From Quercus robur (Eukaryota; Streptophyta; Magnoliopsida; Fagales; Fagaceae), in contig NC_065539.1 of the NCBI RefSeq assembly GCF_932294415.1, positions 47,530,501 through 47,594,500 on the forward strand: a stretch of DNA of 64,000 nt, written 5' to 3'. Of the stretch, positions 375 to 48,579 are shown piece by piece. A program made the translations under genes and the position numbers. Every line of letters begins with the position of its first letter. The stretch's first letter is position 1. The notes beneath the pieces are model-generated. The model was not told the DNA's origin. It saw only the letters and a list, made by a program, of their open reading frames with translations, and did not search any database.

Positions 375-471
375 GTACATATTTCACCAGTATTTTGTGT
401 TATTCATTTGTATATTAGCAAAGATTTTTCAGGAAACAATGATATTTTTCTTTGAGCAACGATTCATCAAG

Positions 472-1830: not shown

Positions 1831-3685
1831 TTAGTCTTGGCACTTGAAAATGTGGACGTTTAACACAACACCGTCCCTCATAATCAGCTCAAATACGCAA
1901 ACATCTCCTACTTGCAAACTATTTTCCCTCACAAACGCAGACCAACCAGCTGATACGACACATGATGAACCCCCACTTCGTTCATAAATGTATAGCTTCA
2001 CAGGCCATAATCGGTCCACAATCTGGAGCTTGACAGGGAGTATACTTGCTTTGGTGTAGTCCTTGGTAAACCCGTCTCTTGGTAAGTAGTTGATAATGTG
2101 TTGGGGTAAACTCTGTACAAGGAACAATAATAGATATTTAACAAATATATTCCAGCAACAAGTATCTAATTGATCTACATCTTTTCACCTAAAAACACAA
2201 ATAAGAACAAATCATTACCAACAAAATGTCCAGCCACAAGTATCTAGTGTGACAATCTTTCTAATTGATCTATGAAAAATGACAGTTAATGGGAGTTGCA
2301 TTTCTAAATTACAAAAATATTCCATTTTACTGAAGCTAAAAGCTTACCGCACGATCCTTGCCATTAATGTAGGATGGACGCATGGTAACAGTGAAAAGGG
2401 GATTTTCTGATTTAAAAGCATTGGCTATAACAAGATTTTTAGCTACACCACCGTCTTTCTTAGGATGGGCTGATCCTGAAAGAAGTTGAAAATACGAAGT
2501 CATGCACATAAAATTAATAGAGCAGAAGCTAAACAAATCAAGCAGTTGCTTACAAAAGTGTAACATTCAAACCTGAACCCTCTCCCCTATAAAAGTGTTT
2601 GATGATTTCAACAGAGCTGTCATCACTCTCATCATCTTCGATCCTATGATGTACATGTTGTTCGTCGTCTAAAGTATAGTCTATTTCTGTTGCAGTGGCA
2701 TCAAATATGAGTACATGAAACTGTGAATTTCCTTCATATTTGAAAACCAGCAAGTGCCCCACGGCTACACCATGAGAGCTTGCAAATTCGGACCAACCAT
2801 TTTGAAACCAAACCCCCCCAGCATGTTGTGCCAACTTGACTTTCCATTTTCTACCATTTGGAATAGTGAGAAAGGCCATATCTGACAGGTCCACTCCAAA
2901 TTTCTGCACGCACTTATCTGGAATCCGCTGTAAAAAGAATCTCCATAACATAAATGCAGGCTAGGGAAATAAACACATGCAATCAATCCTTATACACAAT
3001 GCTAGAAAATAAAAGTTTGAATGACCCTCTTATACTTCTTAGTTACAGCCCCCCACCCCCACACAAAAAAGAAAAGAAAATCAAACAAAATAAAATGTAA
3101 TCCTGCAACATTGACGTTATATTTAATAGCTATAACAGTAACAACTCTTATGAATTTTGAAACCAATTTATACAACCTAATCTTATAACCAAAATAACCA
3201 TCAACCTCTACACTTTTACATTTCTCTGTTGTTGTTGAAATGTAAAAAATTTTGGGGAAATGTTGTACATTTGACAGGTCCACTGCAAAAGAATATATAT
3301 TAAACTGTGAATTTCCTTCATATTTTTCCTCAATCTCTACCATGCGCTTATATCCCTGTTCCATTTTTTGTTCATATCTACTTGTACGATGCAAAAGTAC
3401 TCTGTTATGTGACTGTGTTCTTCTTAAAGTGTAACCTACGTATTGCAAAATGAAAGTTTTTCTGACTACATGTAACAAATGTACATATTTCAACAATCAC
3501 AAATAAAGAAGATGAAGTGTTCGAAGTGTATTAGCATATGATTTTCAGACAATGATAGAATTTATAAATTTGAGCATACTTACAAGCTTTCCTTCCTGAA
3601 CAGCATTCTGCAGAATAATCTTGAAAAAGTGTGGGGACCGATCAGCAGGACCATCGTCGTTGTCTCTCCGCCATTGAGAAGCCAT
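1831..3685 (-). CDS. two-B3-domain (REM/VRN1-like) DNA-binding protein
   Basis: Four exons join in frame on the minus strand: 3685-3584, 2927-2573, 2475-2348 and 2112-1831, 867 bases, 288 residues. All junctions are GT/AG and the phases match (0, 1, 0). The start MASQWRRDND precedes the canonical first-B3 opening SPHFFKIILQNA. The first B3 domain (about residues 18-112) contains IPNGRKWKVKL, VWFQNGWSEFA and FKYEGNSQFHVLIF, matching the VRN1/REM group. An acidic linker (DDESDDSS) follows. The second B3 domain (about 170-286) contains FTVTMRPSY, LPVKLQI, GWSAFVREN and LQVGDVCVFEL. Such proteins bind DNA in the nucleus, often without strong sequence preference, and act in vernalisation or reproductive development; the exact role here is unknown. 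The palindrome array of the neighbouring MULE starts about 90 bases upstream of the ATG, so the promoter may be transposon-derived. No inactivating change was seen. Confidence 0.85.
3272..3335. repeat. permuted duplicate of B3 exon 2 pieces inside intron 1
   Basis: TGACAGGTCCACTGCAAA (about 3275) and CTGTGAATTTCCTTCATATT (about 3304) repeat two stretches of exon 2 (near 2884 and 2727), but in the opposite relative order. It looks like a decayed, rearranged copy of the first B3 exon, inside the 656-base intron. Confidence 0.6.
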
Positions 3686-3775
3686 TGTTCTGGTTCTCCA
3701 AACTTTCGCTGAGAAGAAGTTGAACAGTTGCTGCTTCGTACGTTTGAGCACTAAATAGTGGGTTGGTCATACACA

Positions 3776-4790
3776 TAACCCGACTATTCAGAAATCGAGT
3801 TATGTGTACTGGGACTAAAAGGAGTCCATGCTGTGCGCAGTGTATCTCAGAGGAATCCATGTTGTGTGTGGTGGTTTGGAAGTCCATTTGAAGTAACTCG
3901 ATATCCTGAACATCAGGTTAAAGTAGAATTACTCGATATCCAAGAAATCGAGTTATATGGGACTAACTCGCTTATAAAGAAATCGAGTTAAGTTACATGG
4001 GAAATTGGGAATAACTCGGCAACAATTGTAGACAACGGTCTTCAACGTATCTCGATTCTAAATATATCGAGTTCCTCTCAACAGAACTCGGTAACCACTA
4101 AATCGAGTTACGTTGACTGGGCTTCCTGAGCCAGCCCAGATAGTTGGACTGGTCCAGAGGCAGTCCAAGAGGAATCTAAGTGGAGACAACGGCCTTCAAC
4201 GTATCTCGATGCTATATAGATCGAGTTACTCTCAACATAACTCGGTTACGACGAAATCGAGTTAAGTTGACTGGGCTTCCTGAGCCAGCCCAGATAGTTG
4301 GACTGGTCCAGAGGCAGTCCAAGAGGAATCTAAGTGGAGACAACGGTCTTCAACGTATCTCGATTCTATATATATCGAGTTACTCTCGACATAACTCGGT
4401 AAGGATGAAATCGAGTTAAGTTCACTGGGCTTCCAGCCCAGATATTTGGACTGGTGCCAGAGGCAGTCCAAGAGGAATCTAAGTGGAGACAACGGTCTTC
4501 AACGTATCTCGATTCTATATATATCGAGTTACTCTCAACATAACTCGGTAAGGATGAAATCGAGTTAAGTTGACTGGGCTTCCTACACCAGCCCAGATAT
4601 TTGGACTGGTCCAGATACAGTCCAAGAGGAATCTCCAACGTAACTCGGTACCCTATAAATCGAGGTATGTTGAAGGTAACTCGGATATCTAGAAATCGAG
4701 TAACTCAGATACTTGACAATTGAGAGTGGATACAGTCGTAGGGGGTTGAAAATGGACTGCAACGTAACTCGTTATCTAGAAAATCGAGTT
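3776..4790. repeat. left cluster of about 14 AACTCGAT/ATCGAGTT palindromes
   Basis: Near-perfect inverted repeats of about 26 bases, with arms like ACTCGAT and ATCGAGT around an 8-9 base spacer, recur at roughly 3780, 3930, 3963, 4049, 4084, 4203, 4239, 4354, 4391, 4504, 4540, 4640, 4677 and 4763. Variants read ACTCGGT on the left arm. The same motif recurs in the two other clusters of the element. Subterminal repeats of this kind are candidate transposase-binding sites; that role is inference. Confidence 0.85.
4031..4635. repeat. tandem array, four units of about 150 bases
   Basis: Units begin with GACAACGGTCTTCAACGTAT at 4031, with near-identical starts at 4185, 4339 and 4488 (periods 154, 154 and 149). 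Each unit contains two of the palindromes plus a GGCAGTCCAAGAGGAATC stretch. Copies are highly similar, so the array expanded recently. Confidence 0.9.
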
Positions 4791-5540
4791 TCATTTAGTA
4801 TAACCTTTCTACTTGTAGTTTTGCTTGCTACTTGCACTGTTCACACGCATTCAGTAACGTGCTTATTCATGGTTAAAGTGGACCTGCTGACAACCATGCT
4901 GTGAACAACAAGTCATCCATACAAATCATAACCAACCACATCCATCAGTAACATTCCCCCATTTGCATTACGCGAATGAAAAAATCATCCATATATACAA
5001 GCTTATTTGTAAGTAAAGAGCCTCTAAAGCTTTAATCAGTTGATGTACAAAAATAAAAAGTTCCATTTCTGCATTTTAAACAGTCATAGCAATTGTAAGT
5101 TGAAACTTGGACAGCATCCGCCAACAATGGTTTTAGGCAAACATGGAGTCATAGCATTTGAGTGACACCTTCTTTTTGTTCTTTTCAGAAGTTGCCTCCT
5201 TTCTGAGGAGTAGCCAACACAGAAATTAGTATACAACCCATGGTAATCAATAAATTGAATTGACAAATATAGAAGAGCATTCAAGCTTGCCTGCTTAAAT
5301 GAGGAGCATCTACAGTTACACCTTGCGGATTGAATACAAATCTGCAGCAAAACATATACAGTTAGGGAAATAGAGACCTCATGAATACTAGAATATGTAC
5401 ACCACAAACAATAAGATTGAAAGAATACTACAAATTACTGCCCACATCTTAATTATAACTCATATAATGTAATATCTAAACATGTAAAGAAGAATAACTT
5501 ATGATACCCCCTTGTTACTAAGATTTGTAATTCTTACCTG
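4791..5540 (-). other. 3' flank of the transposase gene with a probable UTR intron
   Basis: No ORF of note. Immediately after the transposase stop codon the minus strand reads CAG|GTAAGA, a good donor, and near 5345 it reads TTTTGCTGCAG, a good acceptor. A spliced 3' UTR is therefore plausible. Confidence 0.4.
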
Positions 5541-8165
5541 CTACATAGCACCATGGCTTGTTGAAGCCACATTTCGAGTTGGACATGTACGACGGTTATG
5601 ACCCTCTTGGCGACACAACCCACACTTCAACTTTGGTCCATTCTCAATCCACAATGAGGTTGGCAACTCCCTATCCTCGTCATCCATCTCATTGCGGATT
5701 CTCGTGGACTTGGGCCGACCTTTTTCACGGATCAACCGCTGGTTTGGCATTACGGTTCTCCTTTCTGCTGGCTCCGGCCATTCTAACCTATCTTTTAGTG
5801 GTTGGAATATAGGCTCATAGCTGTGATAGCGTTCTTCAAGGCGGTAGAAATGATCCATATACTCAGTGGCATCATGGTTGTGTTTGGCACAAACTGCTAT
5901 CAAGTGGGAACAAGGGATCTTGTTTGCTTCCCATTTGCCGCACGTGCATGTCATGTCTATGAGGGAAACCCTATGGGTGTGATCTCCCCCGCCAGTGTTC
6001 AACAGTGAAGACTGTGTCTCCACTGTATATAACCGTTGTTGCGCACTCATCCTTCTAACAATATGGAGCTTCGCCTTCTCTTGATTTTCCTCGAACTTGT
6101 CATAGGCATATTTGCACCACACTTGCCCCTCTTCCAACTTCTCTAGGGTTTTGTTTCGACGTTCGTCAAAGTATGAGTTCACCTTGTAAAATGTAAACTT
6201 CACCATTGCAGTTATGGGCAAGCTACGTGCGCCCTTAAGTACCCCATTGAAGCACTCTGACAGGTTGGTTGTCATTGCCCCATATCGGTGCCCATGGTCG
6301 TGTACAAGTGTCCACTTTTCTTGATTTACCTCCTTAAGATAGTCGTACGCAGCCGGGTTGACATTCTTGATGCAATCCATGGTGTTCTCAAACTTCCTAA
6401 CTTGATTCGCAGTTGCTGCGTTCCATACCAAGTTCTTCAAGGCCACACTATTGAAGTTAGTGTTAACATTGCTTACTAAATGGCGGAGGCAATACCGGTG
6501 ATGGGTTAAGGGCGGTTGCAAGTAGCCCCTAGTGGTGTCATCGAAGCATGATTGTATCCCACGATGCCTGTCGGATATTATACACAAATTGGTGCGGTCT
6601 GTAACATAGGTCAACAGGCATGCCAAGAACCATCCCCATGTCTCCGTGCTCTCGCTTTCGACAACGGCAAATGCGAGTGGATAAACCTCGTTGTTACCAT
6701 CTGTTGCCATTGCTATCAACAGCTTTCCTTTGTACTTGCCATAAAGGTGCGTTGCATCTATGCTTATCACCGGCCTGCAATGCCTAAACCCTCTAATACA
6801 CGGACCGAAAGCCCAAAACGCGGAGTTGAATATACAAGTCCCCGGGACATTGGGGTCACACTTTAGTGTGGTCACAGTATCCGGATCTGCATCAGACAAT
6901 GCAGCTAGAAATCGTGGCAATTCTGTGTACGACTCGTCAAAATCCCCGTAAATACGTGCAACTGCCTTCTGTTTGGCTTCCCAAACCTTGTACATAGTTA
7001 CATCATGCCCATGCCTTGCATGCAACATACTACGCAAGTCCCTTACCTTTCGGGTTAGGTCTTCCCGTACATACTTCTCAAGTGCAATGGAGATGAACTT
7101 TGAATCCATCATCCGCCCATCAGTTGGTAGCTGGAGGGATGAGCAACTATGGGGACCCTTACATGTACTGATAACCCACATCCCGTGCTTCTTGCTGCAA
7201 TTGGCCCGAATTGACCACAGACATGCCTCATTCTTACACCGCACTACCAGCCTATTGGTGTCAGACTTGATGAACTTGTATTGCTTGTTATGCTCCACAG
7301 AGTAGAGGGTCAACACATATTGAACAGAGGCTTTATTCTTGAATAGCATCCCCCTTGCTGGGTGGTCATCTTTATGCCAACTTGTAAGATGTCCTGTACC
7401 CAATGCAGGTGAAAGGTCATTAATATTGTCCCATGTGTTTGATGTGAACCATTCTGGGATAGGAACTGTTGTAAGGCAATCTTCCTCGTTATTTTCAATC
7501 AGTGGTACATCTAAGACCTCCGCGTCGTCCACTGGTCCATCTGTATCAATGAACTCTTCATACACATCTCGGCTGGCATCAATATCAATTCCCCCGTCCA
7601 TATCAGCTTGGACATGCTCATATGTGTGAGTAGACCCTCCCACATCATGTGTATTGGTGGCGCCCACCACTTCGGTGTTGTCCAAATGATCTATTGCACA
7701 TGGTTGATTATTGTAGGGGAAAGGCGTGGCATAGGCAAAGGGAGGATGCACGTCAACCGACAATGAGTGTGGCTCTTCCACCCCACTGGCATGCTGTGAA
7801 CTTGCACTACCATGGAACCCAACAGCCTCAACAGTTACATACAAGTCAGACGCTATGAACTGGGGGGTCCGCTTAATCACTGCCCACATCATGTCCACGT
7901 CAGCATCGCAACCCAACGGATTTGAGTTGTAGACAACCTGAGTACTCACAAGTATCTGGGGGGCACGGTACACAATGGATATCTTATGTGACTCCTTGTC
8001 CAACCGTAGAGCTTCCATTATCTTCCGGTGCATTTTTCTCAAGTGTGTTCCCCATTTCAACTCAATGAACTTCTGCTTCACTGACTCGCCTTTATAGGAC
8101 AGCCCATGCAAGTCATGGAAATACTGTTCCCCATCATAGTAAACGTAGAAGCAGTGACGACCCAT
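5541..8165 (-). CDS. MuDR-type (MULE) transposase
   Basis: An uninterrupted frame of 874 residues from the ATG at 8165 (881 from an upstream in-frame ATG at 8186; an acceptor-like TTATCCAG just before 8165 favours the later start). Numbering below is from 8186. Domains in order are: an N-terminal 120-residue region typical of plant MuDR transposases; an acidic spacer; the MuDR DNA-binding domain (about 278-350) with a WRKY-GCM1-type zinc finger (C317, C322, H346, C348); the MULE catalytic domain with SIDATHL (D477), IISDRHRG (D539) and NLSECFNGVL (E644), giving a DDE triad; a SWIM zinc finger (C747, C749, C759, H761); and a C-terminal zinc knuckle CX2CX4HX4C (C855-C868). The enzyme cuts and moves elements with matching ends in the nucleus. 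All key residues are present, so it may be active. It diverges from the HBD ORF across a 1.5 kb spacer. Confidence 0.93.
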   Translation of the reverse strand: MGRHCFYVYYDGEQYFHDLHGLSYKGESVKQKFIELKWGTHLRKMHRKIMEALRLDKESHKISIVYRAPQILVSTQVVYNSNPLGCDADVDMMWAVIKRTPQFIASDLYVTVEAVGFHGSASSQHASGVEEPHSLSVDVHPPFAYATPFPYNNQPCAIDHLDNTEVVGATNTHDVGGSTHTYEHVQADMDGGIDIDASRDVYEEFIDTDGPVDDAEVLDVPLIENNEEDCLTTVPIPEWFTSNTWDNINDLSPALGTGHLTSWHKDDHPARGMLFKNKASVQYVLTLYSVEHNKQYKFIKSDTNRLVVRCKNEACLWSIRANCSKKHGMWVISTCKGPHSCSSLQLPTDGRMMDSKFISIALEKYVREDLTRKVRDLRSMLHARHGHDVTMYKVWEAKQKAVARIYGDFDESYTELPRFLAALSDADPDTVTTLKCDPNVPGTCIFNSAFWAFGPCIRGFRHCRPVISIDATHLYGKYKGKLLIAMATDGNNEVYPLAFAVVESESTETWGWFLACLLTYVTDRTNLCIISDRHRGIQSCFDDTTRGYLQPPLTHHRYCLRHLVSNVNTNFNSVALKNLVWNAATANQVRKFENTMDCIKNVNPAAYDYLKEVNQEKWTLVHDHGHRYGAMTTNLSECFNGVLKGARSLPITAMVKFTFYKVNSYFDERRNKTLEKLEEGQVWCKYAYDKFEENQEKAKLHIVRRMSAQQRLYTVETQSSLLNTGGGDHTHRVSLIDMTCTCGKWEANKIPCSHLIAVCAKHNHDATEYMDHFYRLEERYHSYEPIFQPLKDRLEWPEPAERRTVMPNQRLIREKGRPKSTRIRNEMDDEDRELPTSLWIENGPKLKCGLCRQEGHNRRTCPTRNVASTSHGAM

Positions 8166-8309
8166 GGCAGACCTGGATAAGGACAATTAATTGTGGTTAT
8201 CATGCAGAAGATAGGGGGTTATGTTAATGCAACAGTAATTACTCTTTTACAGATGCACTATGATGCTATCCTAATTATAGGTGTACACACTTGATTCGTT
8301 TGAACACAA

Positions 8310-8490
8310 ACATTGGCCTTTTAGGGGAGACGTGCCACAACAAAGAATTAGGGTGTTTGTAAACTCGCTTGGTAAGGATGCAATATGGAGTAGGAAAATG
8401 CAAACATGGTCAGCAAAACTTGTTCACCTCGCAGGCTTTCTTTTTCAGAACCCACACAGCAAAGACTTTCAGAACTGAAAGAGCCATACA
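8310..8490. repeat. direct repeat, copy 1
   Basis: About 180 bases that recur in diverged form at 9265-9445. Shared landmarks are GACGTGCCACAACAAAG versus GATGTGCCAGAACAAAG, GGTAAGGATGCAATA versus GGTGAGGATGCAATA, and AGGCTTTCTTTTTCAGA in both. No protein function recognised. Confidence 0.8.
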
Positions 8491-8884
8491 ATTTAAACCT
8501 CAGTATACATTACACATCATTAGTGTGTAGTTACGAATGAATGCATATGTCATCATATGAATTCACCGTACAATGTTTGTTTATATATATGTTTATTTAG
8601 AATGATTATATACATATTTCCCAAAAGAGTTCTCAAAAAAAAGTATTATATACATTACTATATAAAACTCGACATATTTAGGAACAATATGTATACAATG
8701 TCACTATCACACACACATACACACATATAAGATTAATCTCACATAAGTCATAAGAGCACACAATAATTAATCGTTTCTTGGACAATTTTTTGCAGGATTT
8801 TCAATGCACTAACAGTTTTTGCAATTCCTAACAAAAATGTTTCAAAAAATTGGTGCCCTAAGCACATACATTATATGTAAACAT

Positions 8885-8893
8885 ACCTATACA

Positions 8894-8927
<34 letters not shown>

Positions 8928-9175
8928 CATGTGATCATATATGGGTAGGTAGCTTTGTTTATATTTACATATATTTGCATATACATACATACATACATGT
9001 ATATATATATATATTTCCCCTTATATGTGTGTGTGTGTGTATGTGTGTGTATATATATATACATATATTTGGGAATGCCACATATACATCTTATTATATG
9101 GGTAAGTACGTTTGTCTATATATACATATATCTATACAATGTTTTCTTTATGTATATATATACACACACATAATG
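8885..9175. repeat. TG/TA microsatellite tract
   Basis: Alternating runs of (TG)n, (TA)n and CATA repeats. ORFs over this tract are pure low-complexity translations and are not genes. It separates the two divergent MULE ORFs. Confidence 0.9.
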
Positions 9176-9264
9176 TCAGAATAAGACAGTTGTAGAAAGC
9201 AATCCAAACCCTTAAGTAGTTATGTAAGTCAATCCATTTATAAGTAGTTATGTAAGTGAATATA

Positions 9265-9445
9265 TACCTGTCAGGGAAGATGTGCCAGAACAAAGAAGAA
9301 GGGGACCACAGCAACAGCACGCCTGGTGAGGATGCAATAATGACAAGGAAAATGGCAGAAGAGTTAGCAAACTTTGTTCACCTCATAGGCTTTCTTTTTC
9401 AGAGACCAGACAGTGAAGGTTTTCAACACAGATAGAGCCAGACAC
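9265..9445. repeat. direct repeat, copy 2
   Basis: The second, diverged copy of the 8310-8490 repeat. It lies just left of the central palindrome cluster. Confidence 0.8.
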
Positions 9446-9481
9446 GTGCATGGATTCTGAAATGTGGGGAGGGGGACAACA

Positions 9482-9650
9482 TGACTCGATATTAAGTACA
9501 TCGATTTTATATAAAACTCGATACCACATAAATCGAGTTACTGTTGACAAGACGTATTGAAATGACGGCATTTCAGAAACTCGGTTAATGAGAAGTCGAG
9601 TTACATGTAACTCCGCATGCTATAACTCGATTTCTATGGAATCGAGTTGT
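9482..9650. repeat. central cluster of four AACTCGAT/ATCGAGTT palindromes
   Basis: Copies at about 9482, 9515, 9579 and 9624, for example TAACTCGATTTCTATGGAAT followed by CGAGTTG. The cluster lies about 100 bases before the start of the HBD ORF and 1.3 kb from the divergent transposase start. It could be a shared control region or an internal former element end. Confidence 0.8.
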
Positions 9651-9750
9651 GGCCCCATTTCCACTACAAAAGCTCACTTCACACGTTAGAAGGTGCAGCC
9701 ATGTTATTCTAGTGCAAAGAGTTCCCACCATTGCGTTTTTGTAGAGCAGG

Positions 9751-10188
9751 ATGGGACGAACCTATGTTGTGTTTAACGGTCGTGTTCCAGGCATATACGA
9801 CAGTTGGCTAGATGCGAGTAGACAAGTTCATAAATTCCCAAACGCCAATCACAAATCATATAAAGATCGAAGGGAAGCCGAAGCTGCATACATGGAGTAT
9901 TTGCATGGTAATGGTATGGGCGTGCATGGTGGTGTGTCTACGTCGTGGGAAACTCCAAACATATCAACCTCAACTCCACCTAGCACTTCTCAAAGCGAAG
10001 GAACCAACTATGGCAGTGGAGACATTAGGCACACTTTGTTAAGGTATCAGTTGGAAGTTGCCATTGAGGAGCGTGACCACGCAAGGAGGATCGCAACGTT
10101 GAGTGCAAACATGTTGAATGAAGTGGTGGCTCACGTTGTGGGGGATGATGAAGTTGATGCACCCACGAGACAACGTACGGATGCATGA
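9751..10188 (+). CDS. HBD/viroplasmin-domain protein of the MULE
   Basis: Single-exon ORF of 145 residues. Residues 4-47 (YVVFNGRVPGIYDSW, then ASRQVHKF, HKSYKDRREAEAAY) match the RNase H1 N-terminal hybrid-binding domain, also known as the caulimovirus viroplasmin domain. The diagnostic GR-PGIY-SW, a Val-x-x-Phe and the Lys/Ala-rich end are all visible. This fold binds RNA/DNA hybrids or dsRNA. No RNase H catalytic domain follows. Instead there is a Ser/Thr-rich linker (about 60-85) and a helical, charged tail (DIRHTLLRYQLEVAIEERD), possibly a coiled coil. It is transcribed away from the transposase. A role as an accessory protein of the element, like the second gene of MuDR, is speculation. 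It could instead be a captured host fragment. Confidence 0.75.
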   Translation: MGRTYVVFNGRVPGIYDSWLDASRQVHKFPNANHKSYKDRREAEAAYMEYLHGNGMGVHGGVSTSWETPNISTSTPPSTSQSEGTNYGSGDIRHTLLRYQLEVAIEERDHARRIATLSANMLNEVVAHVVGDDEVDAPTRQRTDA

Positions 10189-10329
10189 ATGCAAAAGTAC
10201 GACTTCTTGTTGTGGTATTTAGTAAGATATGTATACTTCCAAGTACCATCTGTTGTCATGTGTGCTTTAAGTAGAAGTGTCATCGTTTTCCAATTGTTTC
10301 ACTGGCAGATATGTATATATGGAAAAATA

Positions 10330-10500
10330 ACCTTATTATTTTTGTTTTTGGACTACTTTGGTCTTATTCGGTCCATTATATCTACTTTGGTCTTATTCGG
10401 TCCACTGTGGTTTCTAGGAAAATCGGTGTACTACATTCTATTTACTCTATTTGATCCTATTCAGTCACCTTTGGTCGTACCCCGTCTATTTGATTCACTG
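10330..10500. repeat. short imperfect tandem repeat
   Basis: CTACTTTGGTCTTATTCGGT occurs twice, about 35 bases apart, followed by weaker copies (GATCCTATTCAGTCACCTTT). No function seen. Confidence 0.7.
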
Positions 10501-11010
10501 CAGTCCATTATTGTGTACTTACAAAATACTACATCAGCCTATACACAATGAGCCACGATTAACGAATGTACATGACGTAAAAAACAACAATGAATTGCAT
10601 AACCTCTACATGAACGATTTGGAAATCCTCCTCGTTGGAGGATTCACTGCAATCCATACCAATCAAAGAAAATTCAAAGTTTAAAAAAGCTAGGATTGGA
10701 ATTATTCATACATGATAAATCGTCCAACATTAGAAAATTATCTAAATTCTTCAAGTCAATTCTGAAAATTTTAATAGCCACAATATAGAAAGTCCAGAAC
10801 AAAATGACCATGAATAAAAATTGACACCAACCAACTAAAAAAACAAATAACACAGCTATATAAAGGTTCTTGAATCCCAAACACAGTAAATAAAACCCTA
10901 AAATTATGATGTACCTTGTAGTATTATTCTGAATTAGAAAAAAAATGAACACTTAAAATTTAAAAGTTACGTAATCTCGTGAACATTACATGGAATACTA
11001 CAGGTTTCAA
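10501..11010. other. non-coding spacer within the MULE
   Basis: AT-rich sequence with no credible gene. The short ORFs here are low-complexity, Phe/Leu-rich shadows. Confidence 0.4.
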
Positions 11011-11019
11011 TAGATACAT

Positions 11020-11182
11020 TACAATGGTCCCTCTAGCTAGCTCCACTGGACAAAACAGGTTCATCTCTATGAGAGTGGTCTTGCCACTGCCAATTCTGCC
11101 AACAATACGTATTTTGTGCCCTTCCTCAAATGTGCAACTGATCCCCCTCAGAACAAGTGCATCAGCCTATATTTGATCTGTT
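11020..11182 (-). pseudogene. captured fragment of an ABCC (MRP-type) transporter, second NBD
   Basis: The minus strand reads [19 protein letters not shown], then [19 protein letters not shown] and a decaying [11 protein letters not shown]. Plant ABCC transporters have [35 protein letters not shown] and VEPAGGKI at the start of nucleotide-binding domain 2, with the Walker A motif GRTGSGKTTL. Upstream, QIKYR in a neighbouring frame matches the conserved IQ-RYRP, so there is at least one frame shift. Only about 160 bases remain and no other ABCC exon is visible. This is a host-gene piece carried by the MULE, on the same strand as the PLAA piece just to its right. Confidence 0.82.
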
Positions 11183-11337
11183 TTATCAATGATATATAAA
11201 GCCATATTATAAAGCCAAGTTTGAAGCAAATAACACAACTCTCAATCATGTGAAGATAAATAGAAAACCAGTCAGATTGGTAATGAATGCCAAAGCATTA
11301 GTCCGCTTAGATAAAGTCCGGAAGAACTTCAAATCAA

Positions 11338-11372
11338 GAATGCTTGCACTTCCGTCAAAAGTGCAAGCATTC
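11338..11372. repeat. perfect 14-base inverted repeat (hairpin)
   Basis: GAATGCTTGCACTT and AAGTGCAAGCATTC flank a 7-base loop. The arms are perfectly complementary in otherwise ordinary sequence. It overlaps a short unidentified minus-strand frame (11475 down to 11329, 48 codons, MGNPHMFSALHGLIAKKF...) that may be another captured coding scrap. Confidence 0.9.
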
Positions 11373-11743
11373 CTTTCCCACTAAATACTCCACAAGAGAC
11401 AAACTCAGTATCATCATGTCTAAATTTTTTAGCAATCAAACCATGTAAAGCACTAAACATATGAGGATTACCCATGTCAACAGTTTGGTCAATTCAATTA
11501 ATGCCAACTTATACATCAGAAGTCTTATTAAATGCTTCTTCCACTTCTAACTTATAGGAAGCTCAAAGAAAATATGTTTGATGATCACCAAACAGACATG
11601 TAAGAAGAAAATTTTACAGCATCGTTAGTTTGCAAAATCTACAATTATTTTCATTCCCACATGATTTCAACACATTGCAGATAAGGATATATATATATAT
11701 ATATATATAAAGCACAATGAAGGCAAATAAATGGAAAAAATAC

Positions 11744-12072
11744 CTGTATGCCCAACAAAAGTATGTGTACATTTGCTTCCTCTCCAAAGTTTTAAAGTTG
11801 TATCACTTGAACCTAAAATCGTGGTAGCATAAAAATGAACCCCATAAGTTCATAGTGAAAGACATTCGTAGTTGATAATGCATTCCAATCTGATGTAACC
11901 AATTCCAACTACCAACAAAATCTAAAACAATATCTAGCAGAACAGTCATCTACTTAATCATATTATACCTGTAACAAGCTCGCCTGAAGGCAGCTTTATG
12001 AGTGCTTGGATTGCTGCCTTATGAGCCTCCCAGGATTCTGAAGGTTGGCCACTTCTCCAACGTCTTAATGTG
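11744..12072 (-). pseudogene. captured two-exon fragment of PLAA/DOA1 (WD40 part)
   Basis: Exon 12072-11969 (104 bases) encodes TLRRWRSGQPSESWEAHKAA and IQALIKLPSGELVT. Exon 11812-11744 (69 bases) encodes GSSDTTLKLWRG and SKCTHTFVGHT. Together they are consecutive WD40 blades of phospholipase A2-activating protein (PLAA; yeast Doa1/Ufd3), a Cdc48 cofactor that binds ubiquitin. Splice sites are intact: acceptor CACCACAG, donor ACAG|GTATAA, acceptor ATTTTAG, donor ACAG|GTATTT. The split codons (TG|C before, G|GT between) are as in a genuine gene. The 156-base intron was carried along, so capture was from DNA rather than mRNA. Neighbouring WD40 blades are absent. Both frames are still open, which suggests recent capture or weak decay. 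Confidence 0.88.
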
Positions 12073-12084
12073 CTGTGGTGAAGG

Positions 12085-13190
12085 AGACATTAGATACTAA
12101 CCGAAAATTATTGAGAAAAATGCATATACCTTTGTAAGCATAGATAATAATTCAAACCCAAAAAACGGCAATACACAAACAATAAAAGTAACATTCAAAC
12201 AGTATGCAAATTTTTCATTAATGCCTCCATCATTTCATTAAAGCAAATGATGGACAAGATTTGATTCATTGGCCAATGACACACACAACATATATATATA
12301 TATATACTGAAAATCATAAAATAAGAAGGCTAATTGATGAAAAAATCAATAATCAATTAAATGTTTCTCATTGGGTTCCCAATTTGCTACCAAAATGAAA
12401 AGGTAATATATACAATGATAAATAACAATTACAAACCCCAAGAAGCAAAAGGAACAAAACATGCACACATAACTAAGATTTTTGCCGTTTTCAGCTTTGG
12501 GTAAGTTATATTGTGAGCTGCTCTAGAACAATGCTAGAAAAAAATATAAATTCTATTCTCCAAAGTTCCTACTAACGAACTTGTAATCAAATGTACACAG
12601 ATCTAATCATTCTAGAGAGGAGGGGATTTAAAGGAGATTAAAATTAATAAAATGGGAAGGAGGATGTACCAATCTAGGAATTGTAGGGAAGGCGAATCAG
12701 AAAATTAGGAGAGAGACACATACCTAGCCATGCATTGTAGAGACTCGGATAAATGATTTGCTACAAAGGAGTTGGTTCTGCCATTGATCCGCATAAACTT
12801 CGTCATCAAACTCTTTTACAGAAAGTATCAAATTACTTCTTCTTGCTTATCAACAATACCACACATTTGTTTCTCACAAAACTAACAAAAATAAAAAAAC
12901 AAATTACTCTCTTACAACCCACTTTACTGTAGCTAACAACATACAAAAACACAAGAAAGTTTGGCTTCAAATGAATACCAATCCAGGCATTTGTCAAATT
13001 GCAATCAAAACTCCAAGTGCAGAAAAACTTCCTAATACATCAATAAATACAATACGCCTTATGGGTTTTCTCCAAAATATCAATTTCTTGACAACAAACA
13101 CATTGACAGCCAGTATTCTCCCCAAGCAATGATCCAGAAATAGATGCACAGCCACCAAGATTCTCCCCAATTAGTAGAACATTTTGCATG
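12085..13190. other. spacer within the MULE with one possible coding scrap
   Basis: Mostly AT-rich. At about 12825-12727 (minus) a frame VKEFDDEVYADQWQNQLL... ends at a donor-like TAG|GTATGT, which might be one more captured exon; I cannot name it. Nothing else is recognisable. Confidence 0.3.
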
Positions 13191-13197
13191 CTTATTC

Positions 13198-13415
13198 CAG
13201 TCACCTATACACATGAAGAATAAGCACACAAGGACAATCCAGCTCAATGGCCTTTTCGTGTCCACCATTGCAGTTAGGTCTAAAAAAAAAAATACGACTT
13301 TAGAAGAAAAGTGAAACGTAACTATGCAGTCACCTATAGGCAGGAAGTATAAGCATACACTAAGGCATTTAATGATCTTTTCGTTTCCGCCCATATGCCC
13401 TGACAGGTCTAATCT
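13198..13415 (-). repeat. two diverged tandem modules downstream of the last PMD exon
   Basis: Stretches at about 13198-13290 and 13330-13420 share the order CACCTATA..., GAAG-ATAAGCA, a GGCCTTTTCGTGTCC or GATCTTTTCGTTTCC block, and AGGTCTAA. They could be duplicated last exons or 3' UTR exons of the PMD gene. Confidence 0.5.
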
Positions 13416-13462
13416 TACCTGTTTCATCAGACACAACAGCATAATTAAATTAACATAATCAA

Positions 13463-16400
13463 TCAAATGCACAGTACAAGTAGCTCAAGAAGATGGGAAG
13501 TGTAGACGAAGTACATACCATCACCGGTCCCGCAATCGGGAGCATGCGCACGCAGGCGTCGCGATCTCCGCAAAGCCTCCACCGGCTCAATGTCCTCAGC
13601 CGGTATCTGCTCAATCTGTACAGCCTCTCCGTGGGCGGTTTGAGATGGAGCTGACATGGTGGGGTCCACTTGCACTAGAGGTGGGGTGGGCATGCCTGGT
13701 GTGGGGACAAATATGCATCCACCATCATGGGCAGATCCACTGAAAACTGGGGGCGACATACGAGGAGGGCCCTCAAAGTCCGTGCTAGCACCATGGGATG
13801 TAGTGTGGGCTGGAACAGTGCCCTGATGATCGACGCTATGGGATGGCCCAGCACCATCGCCAGGCGTGCATCGCGGTGTCCTGCCGTCGTCATCAGACAG
13901 TACCCAATCAGTGCCAAGCCATGCCTCTTCTACACCCTCCTCATTCCCTTCCTCGTAGATGGGAGCCGACTCGGTCGTACGGCTGCGACCAGCTTGACCA
14001 CCTCCACGATGTCCACCCCCACGAGACCCACCACGTTGCCCGCCACGAACTGGGGCCTGTCTATCAATGTCAACTGCTTCTGCAAGCGCATTCGCCAATT
14101 TAAGTCGGCCTAGCTCCTCCACAAGCTCTAGTGTAAATGTAAGGTCAGTGTGCATGTCAGAACCTTCATCGCACCTCGGTATAGACCTAATCATCGTCCG
14201 AACCTACAAAACAAGGGCGTCATAAAAGCAAGAACGCAAGTATGATGCAAAACTTGGATAAATCTGTTCCAAAATCAAAAGAAAAAGTAGCAAACATAGC
14301 TAATGAAATCCTTATATTACTTATAATTATGAAGCATCTTTAAAAAGACAGTGTATAAAAATAGGGGTTGGCCCCCCCTGTGCAAGAATTTATAGTTCCA
14401 ACCCAACACTCAAGAGGTTGTATGTTTCCTGTTATGTTTATCGCTACGCAATCTAAACATTGAGATAATACTTCTAAAAAACACGTATAGTTGGTTGTAC
14501 ATAAGTTCAATCTTAGCATAAGTGAAAATATCAGAATTTCACTTCTGTATCTAGGCTTCACGAGATTTACAACTCCATTAATATCACATTGCAATCAGGA
14601 CACATATTTTGAAGTTATTATTTCCTAACGTACACGCCCAAATCAAATGAATTGAAAATATCAAACGCAAGCTTCAAGTTTCAATTAAGGGAAGTACCAA
14701 AAACTTAGAACATATATCATACTTGAATCTAGTATAAATGCACATCTCCTTGCTGCATACTTGCAAGATTTTAAATGACCTTTAAGCTGTTGGGAATTGC
14801 ATTCTACCAACAGTTTAGTAAGGGACTTCCCAATCCTAGAGGTAATATCTATCAAGGAATATGTAATACATTAATCAGTCCTGGAGGAAAGGCTATCTAA
14901 ACTATCATGAAATGCGAATTTATCACTACTACACAGAGTTGCACCGTCCATTTTAAAGTACAAGCCAACCAAAAACAAAAAAAAAATTAAAAAAAATTAA
15001 AATAAAATACAATAAAACCCAACCCAACCTACCCTTTTTAAAAGTTGAATGTAATTATATGAACAAAGGTGTGGTCATCATTAGTCATTGCCCATTAACC
15101 ATTCCTCATGCAAACAAATTGGATCAAGACAAATTCAGTTTGTTATGAACAACTTAAATCATGCAGTATTTTGACTTTAAAACATAATGACATGTCATGC
15201 AGTATTTTTTCACTTTAAAACAACATGACAGAGAAACTTATAGAGATGTAACAACAATAACTATTGTGGACTTCAAAATATGCATGATAAATCTACTGAG
15301 GATATTTAATCCAACAATGGTTTCATCCATAAAATAGGAATTGTTGCCTCACCATGAGTTCCCAATACGCAGACTCTGGTGTTATGTACCGCCTTGTGTG
15401 GCGATTGTACCACATCATGTACTCAACGAGATACGTATCATCATCGTCTAGGAGATCGGACCCGCGAACTACATTCACTCGGTTGGCCCATTGCCGAATA
15501 AAGGGATCATGTTCTACCTCCCAGTTCTTCTCCCATTTACCCTGAAGGGATATCTTGTGAAGGGTAGTCGACGTATCCACGACACTTGGAACTGGTTGCT
15601 TCATCCCAAACTGACGGAGGACTCGCTCAGGATGATGCCACTCCACTATCCAAAAGAATATCAACGGCACCTCGGCCCTCCAAATATGCTGCCCAGCAGT
15701 GCAATACGCAGGTAGGGAGCCTAGCGTATGCGTGTACGGCTCCCATACAATCTGCATAAGTAGATTATGTTTGTGATAGTGAGACATCATACTAATTTAA
15801 CATTATGTAGGTGATATGTAATATGCAAAGCATGGAATTTCTAGCTTCTAGTCGTACACAAAATCTTCAGGGATTATTGGGCAGAAACTAAAAGAACAAC
15901 AAAATTGACCTGCAAAAAATATTAAAAGATCTAGGTTGTTCATGTCCACCATTTTCAGCCCCATGTTCATATGCTGGACAGGGTTCAAAGCTAACTGACA
16001 CCATCAAATACTAGGGTTTTCAATCTGAACCAAACTTAGAGGAGGGTACTACAGCATCCTTATGGCTGTAAGATGAATCCAAGTTGATGATTTCGCAAAA
16101 TCTTTTTATCGTAATAGAAATATTGTGCTACATTAATTGCATTAGTCATTAACAATGTTTCAATGAATGAGAACAAAATGACTATTATAAGGTCTACTGA
16201 AGACATTGCATTTCAAGTACCACTTTATATTGCAAGAAATGGAAGCTATGTAAATTATTACATGGTATAATCCTCATCAAATACTGTTATTATATTTCTA
16301 TGTAAATATATATTTCTTATAAATTTTAGTGTTGGAAATTACGTAAGCCTTTTAGTTATCTCAAACTAATCATGTCAATGTCTAAAATTACATTCCTCTT

Positions 16401-19400
16401 GAAGAATATGGTGATCAGCATATTTTGCACGCTTCTAAAATTATATGAATAAAGTACTCGTTAATAATCCATAGCTTTTAATAATTTTAGGACTATTAAG
16501 GCAGCTAAAGTGGGGACAACTTAAGGAGTTGCATGCTGCAATTAAATTGTGCTCTCCAACTTTGGTGCAAGGAGCACGAACTAACTTTTCATTTAGGTCA
16601 ACAACAAGAGGTAATGTGTCAAGCGTCTTTATGTTTTCTCATATATCACTGATTAACAATTATTTGTTTCTTTAAACTTAGGCCATTGTTTTCCAAGAAG
16701 ACAATCGAGGCTGTGCATATTCAAAATATACCACTTGAATACGTAAATCGAAGTCAAACAGTATTCTACTAGACTGTAAAAATATAACCTTCAATTCAGC
16801 AAAGGTAATTTATAACGTACAATGTAACAATGTTTTTTGCATCACAATAACAATTTTTGTAATCCTGGATACCCCTATGTTAGAAGAAGAAATACTAAAT
16901 TGTCTACTTATTAGGCAGAGCAATAACTATGGTTTTAAGCTCATAACATTTTATTAATTAATTACAAGTGATTTCACAAGCTTAATTACAAACCGTACAA
17001 GCTTAAATTACAAACCACCTGCAGCACCAGTGGCACCAATGAATTGTAAAGAGCTTAGATTCACATTGACTACCTATGAAAACACCATCAACTAGAACAT
17101 CCCAAACAGATGTTTAGATAACATAAAAGTTTATATTAACCTTAGATGGTCACTTAATACTAAATATTGCTATGTTCTGTCACAGGGGTAGTGAAATGCA
17201 TAAACTCCAAACATTAGTAAGTTTTTGAAGGCAAAGCAACAATTGAGACTATCTTCGGTGCTCACTCTGGCATCCTAAACAACCCCAAATCTCACAAAGG
17301 GTTTAACCTATACCCTGGACTCTCGAGTTCCTACTGGGAGGGCACTAATGGCTTTGTATTTTGGAAATTTCACAGTGTGGACCCAAGCAATGACAACCAT
17401 CCAGCATTGGACAAGGACAAGCTATGGCAATGGCTTAGCCTATGGTCACTCTATGACATTCAAGTCAGAGTAACTCCATCCTTTAGTTTGCTTAATTTCA
17501 AATTTCAATGAAAGCCAGAGAAGTGATCATGTGTTTTACGGGCCAATGATCAATAATGTCATCATTCCCTCTGTTTCTGTACTTAGGCCAAAAATGCAAA
17601 CTTGGGTTATATTTTTGCTCTCATGTCATGATTACACAATAATTAGATAAAATTTTCGTAGTTTAACATTTGCAGCTTTCCCAACGTTCTAAATTTAAAG
17701 AATTTTATCATTTTATGAGATTTAACAGCCAACTATATTACAACAGTGAAGAGCAGCTCTAACTCAGCAAATTTAATTCAACGAAAATCTGGAATATAAT
17801 TGTGGTAATATCTAAGTCAACCACCAAAACTATAGCGAATCCAGAAGGTGTGAAATATTAATAAGCTTCAACAGTTCTAAAAAAAATTTCTATTTTAAAG
17901 CTTTAATATTGAAGTATAACAACTATCAAAGATTCAAACTCTCTCTAAAAGAATTATGAGCACAAGTCTGGGCTAACCTGTTGAGCAAGACTCCAAAACG
18001 CATGTAAAGAAGCAGAAAGTGCAAAAACAACGAAGAAGACAGTGAAGCAGAATTCACACAAGGATTAGGGAAAGAAAAAAATTTGGACCATTTCTCGATT
18101 TATGCGTGTCATCCTTGCGCAGGGGCCATGCGTTTTGAAAATATCATTTGTATTCTAATATGCCTTGATTCCCTTGTTCTGAAAAGACCCATATTTGTCA
18201 AGTTTATAGTTAGAAATTTGTTGTTTAGAATTTAATTGACCATGCTGGTTCTGCGTTTACAATCATTCGCCTTATATAAAGTCTTAAGAAATATTGTTTT
18301 GAAATTTTTTAGTTCATTTTCATAGCAGGCTAAAAGTTCTATTTTCTCATGTTAAGTAGGTTGAAACGGTGTATAATAACATAATCAGAAAATGAACACA
18401 AACTTTTGATTCAGTTAGTAGCTGGAAAGAATTTAAAGATGTCATCGTCAGTTTCGAAGATGCATCATTAAAATCAAATGAATTACTTGAGCACACAAAT
18501 ACAACCAAAGACAAATCTGATCATCTTTGGTATACTATTAGGTAAATTCATTTCTCATTGAATTATAACCAATTACATAATCCAATATGTGCGTCTTCTC
18601 TTCATTGCATCAGCTTAATGACATTTGTAACAATTGGTGGAGTTTTTGTTTTTTGGTTGCAACACAAGTTTGAACTCACTGCCTTGCACTAAACGAAGAC
18701 TTCATGCTCAATGTTTTGCGCATGTTGCACATGCTTCATACATCTTGGAAAAGGGACAATTTATTCTGTGTTTTTTTTTTTTTTTTTCCGTGTAAATCAC
18801 AAACGTTTCCGTACATAATGAAGAATATAGCCAAATTCTACTTTATATATATATGACTAAATTTATATATAACCCATTGATTTAACCCAACTTAACCTGA
18901 GTCATGTTAGTTGGGTTGCATTGGAAAAAACCCTTCAATCCAACCCAATTTGGAAAAAACCCTTTGATTTAACATTCAAGAATTTTTTACTTTTGTTTTA
19001 CTTTATGTAAGGACGAGCAAGTATTCATGCAGGTGCTACAAATGGAAGTTCTAATGTGAAGTACTTCACGATGGACATTCCAATTGAGTTAAATGATGGG
19101 ATGGAAATCCAAGTACCAAACAAAATGATTGGATGGTATTATGAAATCAACTCATTCCTACAACAATCCAAGAATTCAAAATAATATAAAATTGAGGGAA
19201 ACGAAAATAAAAGCATGTGCGGTGCATTTGAGGAAAACGTGCTCGGCCCGTAGTTATAAGAATTGAGGGAAACGTGGTCATAAGAATTCAAACTAAATTA
19301 ACCGAATACCTGCTCGGCCCGTACTGTAGCCAGTGACGCCCGGTACGCAGCAAGGACGTGTGTGGCATGCTCTGCGGTGCATTTTGGCCCGCTCCACCTA

Positions 19401-20524
19401 CCAAACATGAGATGTCGACAAATGCTCATTACTGAACCTTACATTTAACAAACTTTGCTTTTATATTTCACATCCATATACTAAGCATTGATAAGTTTCT
19501 TTCGTTTGTTAGTTTGGCATACTTTTAATTATATGAAAGAGACAAATAACGAGAACTCAATGAACGTACCTAATGGCAAGGGGCCCTGAGTGCACTGGCG
19601 GTAGAGGCGGCCTCACAACAGGGCATAATTGTGGGAACCTTGAATAGGCCCATAGCTGCACCAACAAGAGTGCTCCTCCAATCTGCATCGCATCCTTCTT
19701 CGATGCACCACAAAGTTGCCTATACAGCCAGGCCAATGCTGCACTACCCCAGCTATACCGTCTCGCATTGCTGACTGGGTTGAGCAACTGCAGAGGCAGC
19801 AGTGAGACCCGGTCCGCAGACCTGTCCATGAACAAGAGGGCCCCCATCCGTACAAGTAGGTGGTAGCGGGCATATTGCTGCACGACTTCGTCAGCAGCGT
19901 CCACAACTAAGGGAGCGGCAAACTGTGCATCAAGCCAGGTGTATCTTATCCTCGCCCCAGCAAGGGTAGACTTGTTTGAGTTTGGTATCGGGGGTGGAGG
20001 TTTATGGCCCAACAACTGTTCGCACAGCTCACTCCATTTGTAGTCTGTCTTCCCAGTGACAGGCAACCCATCCACCGGAAGCCCCAGCATCACCTCCATA
20101 TCTTGCAAGGTGATACCCATTTCTCCATGGGGTAAGTGGAACGTGTGCGTCTCCGGACGCCACCGCTCAACCAACGCCGTGATCAAGGCGTGGTCGACCT
20201 CCATATCAGGAACCTTGAATAAACCAGTCAACCCTGCTGCATCTATGTGTTGCATGATACGTGGATCTAACCCACCCTGTGGCAATACACATTTACGGCG
20301 TCGAACCTTTATCATGCCAGGCGCCTCCTGCACACGGACGAGTATTCTGTTAGGAGATTAAACACGAGGTAATTATAAAACAAACATGTATTAATAATAC
20401 TACTACATACCTCGTCAGCGGCGCACCTCCAAAGTGGACTTGACCGATGATTCGGCTGCTGGGCCAACTGGGTATCCACATCGGGTCCAGGCCGCACTCT
20501 ATCTAGTGCCTGCATATCTGACAT
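13463..20524 (-). CDS. plant mobile domain (PMD, MAIN-like) protein of the MULE
   Basis: Five exons join in frame: 20524-20411, 20327-19570, 19397-19310, 15751-15353 and 14203-13463, giving 2100 bases and 699 residues. All introns are GT/AG. The core reads [65 protein letters not shown], then [19 protein letters not shown] and [18 protein letters not shown]. This is the PMD shared by MAIN/MAIL proteins and the long-form PP7-phosphatase homologues. Exon 4 adds [20 protein letters not shown] and [18 protein letters not shown]. The last exon is a Gly/Arg-rich (RGG-like), acidic, Pro-rich tail. An alternative end uses the donor GATG|GTATGT at 13519 with a further exon, perhaps within 13.2-13.4 kb. 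PMD genes are known both as host genes for genome stability and as passengers of MULEs and gypsy elements. The start lies about 880 bases from the right end of the element, as for an end-driven gene. No break was seen. Confidence 0.82.
14204..15352 (-). other. intron 4 of the PMD gene
   Basis: AT-rich intron of about 1.15 kb with no recognisable insert. Confidence 0.6.
17222..17513 (+). other. unidentified open frame without ATG
   Basis: A frame of about 96 codons reads [58 protein letters not shown] and [11 protein letters not shown] before a stop. Its composition is protein-like (Trp, Gly, Asp rich) and its GC is above that of the neighbourhood. It lies between BGAL blocks but does not match that family in my reading. 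It may be an exon of another captured gene. Confidence 0.35.
17560..18400. other. intronic AT-rich sequence
   Basis: Between BGAL blocks, inside the PMD intron. Nothing recognised. Confidence 0.4.
19225..19325. repeat. short local duplication at the PMD exon 3 donor
   Basis: GCTCGGCCCGTA occurs at about 19241 and 19312, and GAATTGAGGGAAACG at about 19190 and 19259. The end of exon 3 has thus been partly copied into the intron. Confidence 0.6.
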
Positions 20525-21170
20525 GGCAGCAAATACATTGTTAGCAATTTTCTAACAAGTAAACCACATTTAATATAAAATAAAAGCATAGATTCAGTAA
20601 GACATTATATTTTGAGCACAAGATTTTCAACATCACTTCTTAAATAAATAAGAACTTGCCATAAAAAAAATTATTTCAGAACTATTTAAATCACTTCTTA
20701 AAGCTTCGGATAATTATTAATTAACTATTTCTGAAAATATAAGTTATAACACCACTCGATTTGCCAAAACCCCTCATCAAAACCCCAAGCACATTTAAAC
20801 TCATTAATGAGAAAATCATCATTGCAGCATATAAAAGACAACAAAATTCTCATCTTCATTAGTAAATTTACTACTTCCTTAAGTTTCAACAAAATAATCA
20901 AAATCCCACACAAAACGCAACCTAACATTAACCAACGTCAGAAAATATTTCAGAGGGAGAGGACCGTACCTGTAATCAGCGGCGGCGGGAACCAACGACG
21001 ACTGATGGAGACTCGAGGAAGAGTGGGGAAGCCTGATCGCAGAGCGAGAGAGACAGAGTGTGGAGAGAGAGTGATGGCAGAGAGCGAGGGAAAGAGAGTG
21101 TACAGAGAGAGTGAGTGACTGAATAGCGTTGTGAGACGTTAGGGTCCTATTGATTCAAACCGCTGAACAT

Positions 21171-21310
21171 AACTCGATTTCCAGTTTCCCGAGTTATGGC
21201 CGTCTACACAAACATTTTTTTATTCGGGAAAATTCGAAAGGTCAGACTAACTCGACTATAATAATATCGAGTTATTCATTAAAACTCGATTTCTATATTG
21301 TCGAGTTACA
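21171..21310. repeat. right cluster of AACTCGAT/ATCGAGTT palindromes
   Basis: Three copies at about 21171, 21249 and 21283, such as AACTCGATTTCTATATTGTC followed by GAGTTAC. They lie 90-230 bases inside the right end of the element and upstream of the PMD start. Confidence 0.85.
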
Positions 21311-21401
21311 AAAGAGGGGCAATTCCCTATTTAGTTTCAGAAAGAGGGCAAACGAATGTTTAATTTCGAGAAAAAGGGTATTTGCCCATTTTCTCCCAAA
21401 A
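21311..21401. other. probable right terminus of the MULE
   Basis: This 90-base stretch carries GGGGCAATTCCCTATTTAG, AGAGGGCAAACGAATG and GGGTATTTGCCCATTTTCTC. It ends where homology to the 48.54 kb paralogue begins. It resembles a MULE end but no second copy is in the window. Confidence 0.5.
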
Positions 21402-21445
21402 AATTACACATTTTAATATACAAAATTATGGATGTAAAAACAAAC

Positions 21446-48538: not shown

Positions 48539-48579
48539 AATTACACGTTTTAATATACAAAAGTATGGATGTAAAAACA

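Follow-up and report, generated by a model that had tools for sequence, protein, structure and literature searches.

The closest described systems are Mutator-like elements (MULEs) that carry a PMD domain. A table in PMC6446971 lists MULE groups with PMD (MUDR, MUDRAVI2 and MULE-Solanaceae_1), in which the PMD is often antisense, in keeping with the statement of an earlier note on this DNA that PMD domains are known from some MULEs. Like the element analyzed here, these groups have a MULE transposase with SWIM, a 9-bp target site duplication (TSD) and, in several groups, terminal inverted repeats (TIRs). MULE-Solanaceae_1, compared by description only, has the entry 'unknown ORF and PMD (antisens)', and such a group could be related to our element; a term search of the main text of PMC6446971 returned no named RNase H or B3 partner. 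Relative to the PMD-bearing MULEs of that paper, our element differs in its length of ∼32 kb, in its at least four intact genes and in its palindrome arrays. Fusions of PMD-C with MULE transposases occur in Amborella and several grasses, and PMD proteins form a transposon-related silencing family in Arabidopsis, as stated in the parts of PMC5418596 consulted.

VANDAL21/Hiun (VANA, VANB and VANC) is also a multi-gene MULE that encodes an accessory DNA-binding protein and bears tandemly amplified short non-coding motifs. VANC21 motif arrays change by tandem repeat formation (PMC5735166), and tandemly varying arrays of a short non-coding motif are shared by our element, with 154-bp units and a length that differs by copy. 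In contrast, VANC proteins carry DUF1985 and DUF287, compared with B3, PMD and HBD here, and the VANC motif YAGTATTAY is short, forms single-orientation arrays and is nowhere termed palindromic in the main text of PMC5735166. No match to the DUF1985 or DUF287 families was found among the element proteins scanned, which cover the window part and little of the left 10.5 kb. The VANDAL group is reported to have 'PMD and/or DUF in half the members', and VANDALs are non-TIR in the text of PMC6446971, yet its table gives TIRs of 46–174 bp; the lack of TIRs, a loose criterion, is not shared by our element, which has them.

MuDR (mudrA/mudrB), as presented in the introduction of PMC6446971, likewise joins a transposase and a second gene on an autonomous MULE. 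Its accessory gene differs from those of our element. MuDR is also far smaller, and we know of no palindrome arrays of this sort in it. Pack-MULEs resemble our element in the gene fragments inside them, but by definition they have no transposase and hold host fragments between TIRs; here fragments are present, the transposase is intact, and the element appears autonomous with conserved accessory genes. Among the open-licence papers searched, PMD in MULEs is known, no MULE with HBD or B3 partners was found, and no description of HBD, B3 or the palindrome arrays as parts of such an element was found. As far as that literature extends, no earlier cut-and-paste element would be known to have an RNase H1-type hybrid-binding domain among its conserved accessories.

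Extent, ends and target site of the element

We analyzed a 64-kb stretch of Quercus robur DNA (the window) and searched the 786-Mb assembly of 42 contigs in which it lies, a plant assembly as judged from its genes. The best candidates of each search were scored, and copy numbers are therefore lower bounds. The whole element occupies C6:47520012-47551897 (31,886 bp); the window holds its right two thirds up to the right end at 21397 (Table 1), and the left 10.5 kb lie outside. It would be very large against usual MULE sizes. The earlier note had proposed an element of roughly 17.6 kb beginning at 3776, a size that has to be given up, as other copies also contain sequence from window 3650, 1240 and 1. 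Window 3650-3960 was repeated in 37 of 40 places (best 40 of 62 candidates; alignments that reach both query ends or cover no fewer than 309 of 311 bases), window 1240-2240 in other copies (best 40 of 96) and window 1-460 at full length in 28 of 40 places (best 40 of 52). Because these segments recur in other copies, the element runs off the left edge of the window. Two interpretations were rejected: the left palindrome cluster as an element end, since sequence farther left is carried by other copies, and a host origin of window 1-3700, since its B3, reductase-like and RVT_3 sequences are found in other copies.

Right-end alignments stopped at window 21396 or 21397 in 25 of 40 cases (best 40 of 1126 candidates), and the window's own right end is one of the 15 that continue past this point. 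A second fix on the right end is given by the right flank, which there starts to match the tandem UGT paralogue at window 48536. This flank (window 21399-22386) matches 48536-49544 at 92%, and window 47701-48540 is 88% identical to the left flank (C6:47519190-47520007); the paralogue at 48536 is the surviving empty site. The sequence upstream of this empty site led to the left end, where 301 bases were read. It reads AAAAAATTA then GGCCAAAATGGGC, and the right end reads ...TTTTCTCCC then AAAAAATTA. An early reading from the window alone, that the element has no TIRs, was overturned once the left end had been located in this way. The TIRs are 86% identical over 112 bp, falling to 69% over 259 bp, with a local alignment score of 105 against a maximum of 25 among 200 shuffles. 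Left ends of three more copies were predicted by a fixed distance and all three were found within 2 bp; their target duplications are TCAAGGAAT, ATTTTATAG and AAAGCTCTC. The duplication is 9 bp (9–10, depending on how one C is counted) in all four copies examined. Both the TIRs and the 9-base duplications sought on the suggestion of the earlier note were found.

A search with the left end gave 28 of 40 alignments starting within one base of the assigned first base, and 38 of the 40 left ends had a right-end partner of like orientation (best 40 of 1631 candidates in both cases). The end-to-end span was 31.3–33.2 kb in 23 of the 38 pairs, 4.9–28.6 kb in eight that look like internal deletion derivatives, and 34.2–42.8 kb in seven that look like insertion-bearing copies. 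The marks of the Mutator-like superfamily, namely PF10551 with a Mutator DNA-binding domain and SWIM, a 9–10 bp TSD and TIRs, are all present. It is almost certain from these comparisons that the mobile unit is a ∼32-kb Mutator-superfamily element with diverged TIRs, TSDs and four or more intact genes (B3a, transposase, HBD and PMD). Many near-identical copies hold these genes as one unit and therefore point to recent, repeated movement; a filled site next to an empty paralogue also appears to imply that movement was recent.

Tandem UGT paralogues lie at window 21399-24000, 48536-49544 and 59736-61254. The second is interrupted by ∼10 kb containing a 1474-aa gag-pol-like ORF, which we take to be gypsy-type.

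Table 1. Features of the element and of its target site, in window coordinates
Feature	Position	Strand	Match or remark
Element part within the window	1..21397	+	both ends with matching TSD; window 1-460, 1240-2240, 3650-3960 and 21165-21397 repeated elsewhere in the genome
Aldo-keto-reductase-like fragment, 32 codons	279..374	+	perakine reductase chain 3uyi, 1.6e-6; carried by other copies
Nested reverse-transcriptase/RNase H-like (RVT_3) insertion, boundaries approximate	460..1276	-	PF13456, 1.7e-19
B3a gene, 288 aa, two B3 domains; exons 3685-3584, 2927-2573, 2475-2348, 2112-1831	1831..3685	-	PF02362, 4.2e-34 over two stretches
Left internal palindrome array, 154-bp tandem units	3773..4790	.	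length varies by copy
Transposase ORF, 881 aa from TTG (874 from ATG at 8165)	5541..8186	-	MULE (PF10551) 1.6e-19; DBD_Tnp_Mut (PF03108) 1.3e-10; SWIM (PF04434) 1.4e-7
Palindrome cluster directly upstream of the HBD gene	9477..9650	.
HBD gene, 145 aa, RNase H1-type hybrid-binding domain at residues 5-46	9751..10188	+	Cauli_VI / RNase H1 N-terminal domain (PF01693), 2.6e-15
Degenerate host-gene-like fragments	10960..12089	-	ABC-transporter P-loop piece 10960-11166; WD40-like piece within 11667-11849
PMD gene, exons 20524-20411, 20327-19570, 19397-19310, 15751-15353, 14203-13519 (3′ end approximate)	13519..20524	-	PF10536 over 1-347/347, 3.9e-80
Right terminal inverted repeat	21139..21397	-	three palindromes 92, 126 and 204 bp from the end
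Right palindrome cluster, within the TIR	21165..21313	.	∼640 bp upstream of the first PMD exon
9-bp target duplication AAAAAATTA, right copy	21398..21406	.	left copy C6:47520003-47520011
Unfilled target site AAAAATTA, one A fewer, in tandem UGT paralogue	48536..48543	.	both flanks align

Gene content and gene order among copies

Of the MuDR-type transposase described in the earlier note, the uninterrupted ORF and the SWIM domain were recovered, but the zinc knuckle gave only a weak match under its cut-off (zf-CCHC_2, E 0.0052). The transposase has at least 53 genomic matches at 52 or more places (best 52 of 1721 candidates). Its dN/dS was 0.16–0.36 in comparisons with 13 full-length copies of greater divergence (L025-L037), some of which contain stops, and 0.18 with the partial copy L038; comparisons with the youngest copies gave only noise and were unusable. 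The separate HBD ORF that diverges from the transposase is present as claimed, with weak matches to solved RNase H1 chains (1qhk, E 0.012; 3bsu, E 0.016) and 114 genomic matches. When viral contigs were searched for an HBD-like protein, the pattern matched five stretches and none was confirmed. A 178-bp direct repeat (73%; window 8317-8490 and 9267-9444) lies around an AT-rich microsatellite between the transposase and HBD. The in-frame five-exon PMD gene also stands, with GT/AG junctions throughout and 681 codons without a stop; its exon 2 has at least 147 genomic matches (best 147 of 1478 candidates). Within the large PMD intron, window 17250-17470 (+) contains a protein-like stretch that has no Pfam match and is perhaps another captured fragment.

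The trio of transposase, HBD and PMD named in the earlier note was right but incomplete: a B3 gene, the reductase-like fragment and the nested reverse-transcriptase-like insertion also belong to the element. The nearest solved structure to B3a is VRN1 (4i1k, 1.5e-13). On the strand opposite to HBD, B3a was found in 33 of 35 copies with HBD at least 95% identical and in 14 of 18 with HBD 75–94% identical, and among the matches listed it was found in 0 of 27 copies of the 60–74% subfamily (best 150 of 234 B3 candidates throughout). A second, more distant B3 match (B3b), 40–50% identical to B3a over the matched part, occurs in paired copies on the HBD strand towards the left end, mostly 16–19 kb from HBD (range 13–36 kb). 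By falling HBD identity, B3b was present in at least 25 of 35, at least 7 of 18 and at least 10 of 27 copies among the same 150 matches, and those farthest from HBD may be chance. The B3b of the window copy is absent from these 150 matches and was placed from other copies; in the one piece read, an in-frame stop and a shift of frame disrupt the gene. It is possible that B3b was replaced by B3a over time.

Among the smaller pieces, the reductase-like fragment reached only 0.028 with Pfam Aldo_ket_red, under the cut-off. The RVT_3 insertion is missing from more diverged copies: 18 of 40 copies align from window 1240 and the rest from 1276 or later (best 40 of 96 candidates). The ABC-transporter piece is marginally past the cut-off (ABC_tran, 1.8e-5), the WD40-like piece is under it (WD40, 9.4e-4), and a companion piece at 11958-12089 is without a Pfam match.

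At 50 of 52 transposase places (best 52 of 1721 candidates), HBD lay divergent from the transposase at a distance of 0.9–2.1 kb. HBD, the right end, the left array, the B3 region and the reductase-like fragment were all present at 29 of the 34 places with a transposase at least 95% identical. A convergent PMD (best 147 of 1478) was detected within 35 kb in 35 of 35 cases at HBD identities of at least 95%, in 12 of 18 at 75–94%, in 20 of 27 at 60–74% and in 1 of 12 below 60%, compared with a chance expectation of 0.0033 per HBD. The HBD-PMD and HBD-B3 counts used 92 of the 114 HBD matches, 22 short or weak pieces being excluded; the transposase-HBD pairing used 73, with 19 further ones excluded. 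Also excluded from the table of transposase places were two weak secondary left-array pieces, one B3-region piece, six reductase-region pieces and one of 53 transposase rows. These data indicate that HBD and PMD are old partners of this transposase lineage.

In a further HBD lineage below 60% identity (e.g., C5:88394812 and C6:2075914), 11 of 12 matches were without a matched PMD nearby. At C40:40977137-40997194, a 20.1-kb copy with both ends has its PMD and transposase matches within one 842-residue open frame, apparently a PMD-transposase fusion that recalls the PMD-MULE fusions reported in grasses. A 4.9-kb element with both ends at C35:36913108-36917983 has a PMD exon and a B3b match, and among the matches listed neither transposase nor HBD; by its structure we read it as a deletion derivative.

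The earlier note had also named the case that would count against it, a transposase alone between TIRs, with HBD and PMD belonging to other elements. This case did not hold, since the trio occurs together in other copies between the same two ends. It also occurs together in the subfamily with HBD only 60–74% identical (e.g., C6:15642276 and C3:60051381). An accidental adjacency of HBD, PMD and B3 from different or unrelated elements would agree with the retroelement ORFs and gene fragments also contained in the window, and with the 79 of 147 PMD matches (best 147 of 1478) for which none of the 92 HBD matches used is a partner. Tens of copies nevertheless keep the order and orientation of these genes, at similar spacing, between the same ends, with TSDs in each of the four copies read, so that this explanation is refuted for copies near to the window's and its overall probability is negligible.

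The accessory genes might instead be passengers captured in the Pack-MULE style, functionless for the element. Degenerate gene-like fragments (reductase, ABC and WD40) do sit in it, the 60–74% subfamily yielded no B3a among the matches listed, and the B3b piece read from the window copy is broken, all as expected of passengers. We consider this improbable, however, as HBD and PMD are still paired, many without stops, in a subfamily 26–40% apart in HBD protein, HBD is intact in all 30 copies retrieved for it, and PMD retains five correct exons in the window copy. The locus would be a MULE of recent mobility whose transposase is accompanied not by random cargo but by conserved partners, with domains suggestive of chromatin and RNA/DNA hybrids.

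The palindromic motif and its arrays

The palindrome has the consensus TAACTCG-N13-CGAGTTA, with a variable centre. The window contains 14 exact ACTCG...CGAGT pairs, all within the element and all with a spacer of 13 although 5–25 was allowed; the N13 form was obtained in 0 of 50 Markov resamplings of the window. With one mismatch allowed in total, eight more pairs with spacer 13 and eight with other spacers were found inside the element, and four pairs, one of them with spacer 13, were found in the window outside it. The one-mismatch palindrome at 15477, in a PMD exon, looks like chance. The earlier note had clusters of one palindrome bracketing and bisecting the element; the clusters are real and the right one lies in the TIR, but the left one is internal.

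Three palindromes lie 91, 124 and 201 bp from the left end, at positions matching those in the right TIR (Table 1). Between the two TIRs, the palindrome arms agree in 40 of 42 columns, compared with 76 of 149 for the remaining columns past the first 85 bp; as the left TIR was used to locate the arms, they are given there, and agreement in the right TIR is the test. The outer 85 bp, without a palindrome, agree in 77 of 88 columns.

The internal array spanned 1281–2968 bp in 20 copies (the window's own included) with 99–100% identical transposases. In 12 of the 20, a whole number of 154-bp steps (zero included) separated its length from that of the window, and in eight the difference was of another size. 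One further copy, with an array of 5550 bp, was set aside as insertion-bearing.

A candidate regulatory role of the palindromes

We consider, with a probability of about 0.7, that the best overall explanation is an autonomous MULE with palindromes that serve, by analogy with the VANC motifs, as docking sites of a regulator encoded by the element. Since movement of an element by its transposase through its TIRs is established MULE biology, we propose that our element is moved in this way. The transposase would cut and paste it via the TIRs, likeliest through their well conserved outer 85–90 bp. The palindromes, taken by themselves, are probably sites of a protein encoded by the element: two inverted TAACTCG half sites in a fixed 23-bp geometry could dock a dimeric or two-domain DNA-binding protein. 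Docking at the TIRs, ahead of HBD and at the internal array would keep element promoters active and counter silencing, as VANC does through its motif arrays in VANDAL. The positions of the palindromes (ends, upstream of HBD, in the right TIR near PMD and in the array) would make more sense for a regulator than for a site of purely catalytic use, and we put an anti-silencing or regulatory role, as opposed to a catalytic one, at about even odds.

As judged from their domains, the other two proteins may be older helpers. PMD could interfere with a MAIN/MAIL1-type silencing pathway, and similar speculation is found in the parts of PMC5418596 consulted. HBD might bind RNA/DNA hybrids, either at the element (R-loops, silencing transcripts) or at transposition joints.

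Besides the transposase, B3a is the only element protein in view with a recognized sequence-reading DNA-binding domain, and for this reason the VANC-like role is proposed for it. It is the likeliest candidate, but the assignment is tentative and rates below even odds. VRN1-type B3 proteins are loose DNA binders, which counts against B3a as the reader of the palindrome. The eight array lengths off the 154-bp step, and the difference in form between the palindrome and the VANC motif, speak against the VANC-like proposal as well. If the palindrome is present in the 60–74% subfamily, in which B3a was not among the matches listed, B3a would not be needed to read it. A fuller version of this reading is a counter-silencing kit in which a B3 protein reads a self-amplifying palindrome array, PMD disturbs host PMD silencing and HBD acts on R-loops or silencing transcripts, the DNA reader having been replaced over time (B3b, present in the distant subfamily, broken in the window copy; B3a, confined among the matches listed to closer copies, intact); as a whole this is unlikely. 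The element would allow one to test in a natural system whether sequence-specific anti-silencing is encoded by plant DNA transposons other than VANDALs, and it gives PMD proteins a transposon-side counterpart for study.

Alternatively, the palindrome may be the binding site of the transposase itself, or a hairpin, and the accessory proteins would do unrelated things. This is a serious competitor, which we nonetheless hold to be less than evenly probable. A hairpin does not fit well, because the palindrome centre varies freely and therefore no long hairpin is maintained. Transposase binding would account for three palindromes at matching positions in both TIRs, but of the 21 palindromes listed for the window, 18 are found outside the right TIR, in the internal array and ahead of HBD, and the palindrome-free outer part of the TIRs is also well conserved.

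Palindromes elsewhere in the genome bear on the same question. A slightly stricter pattern gave 2277 matches compared with 7 for a reversed control, a site that reads as the pattern on both strands being counted twice. The 100 places listed are all on contig C1; the two known copies there account for 35 of them and 65 fall outside these copies, including 10 inverted pairs 121–487 bp apart that resemble small elements moved in trans. Palindromes beyond the known copies, and the inverted pairs, also fit transposase binding and to that extent weigh against the docking of an element-encoded regulator. The arrangement of these pairs suggests candidate miniature non-autonomous elements moved in trans; examples of short inverted pairs on C1 are 336839-337117, 9929865-9930087 and 13027640-13027917.
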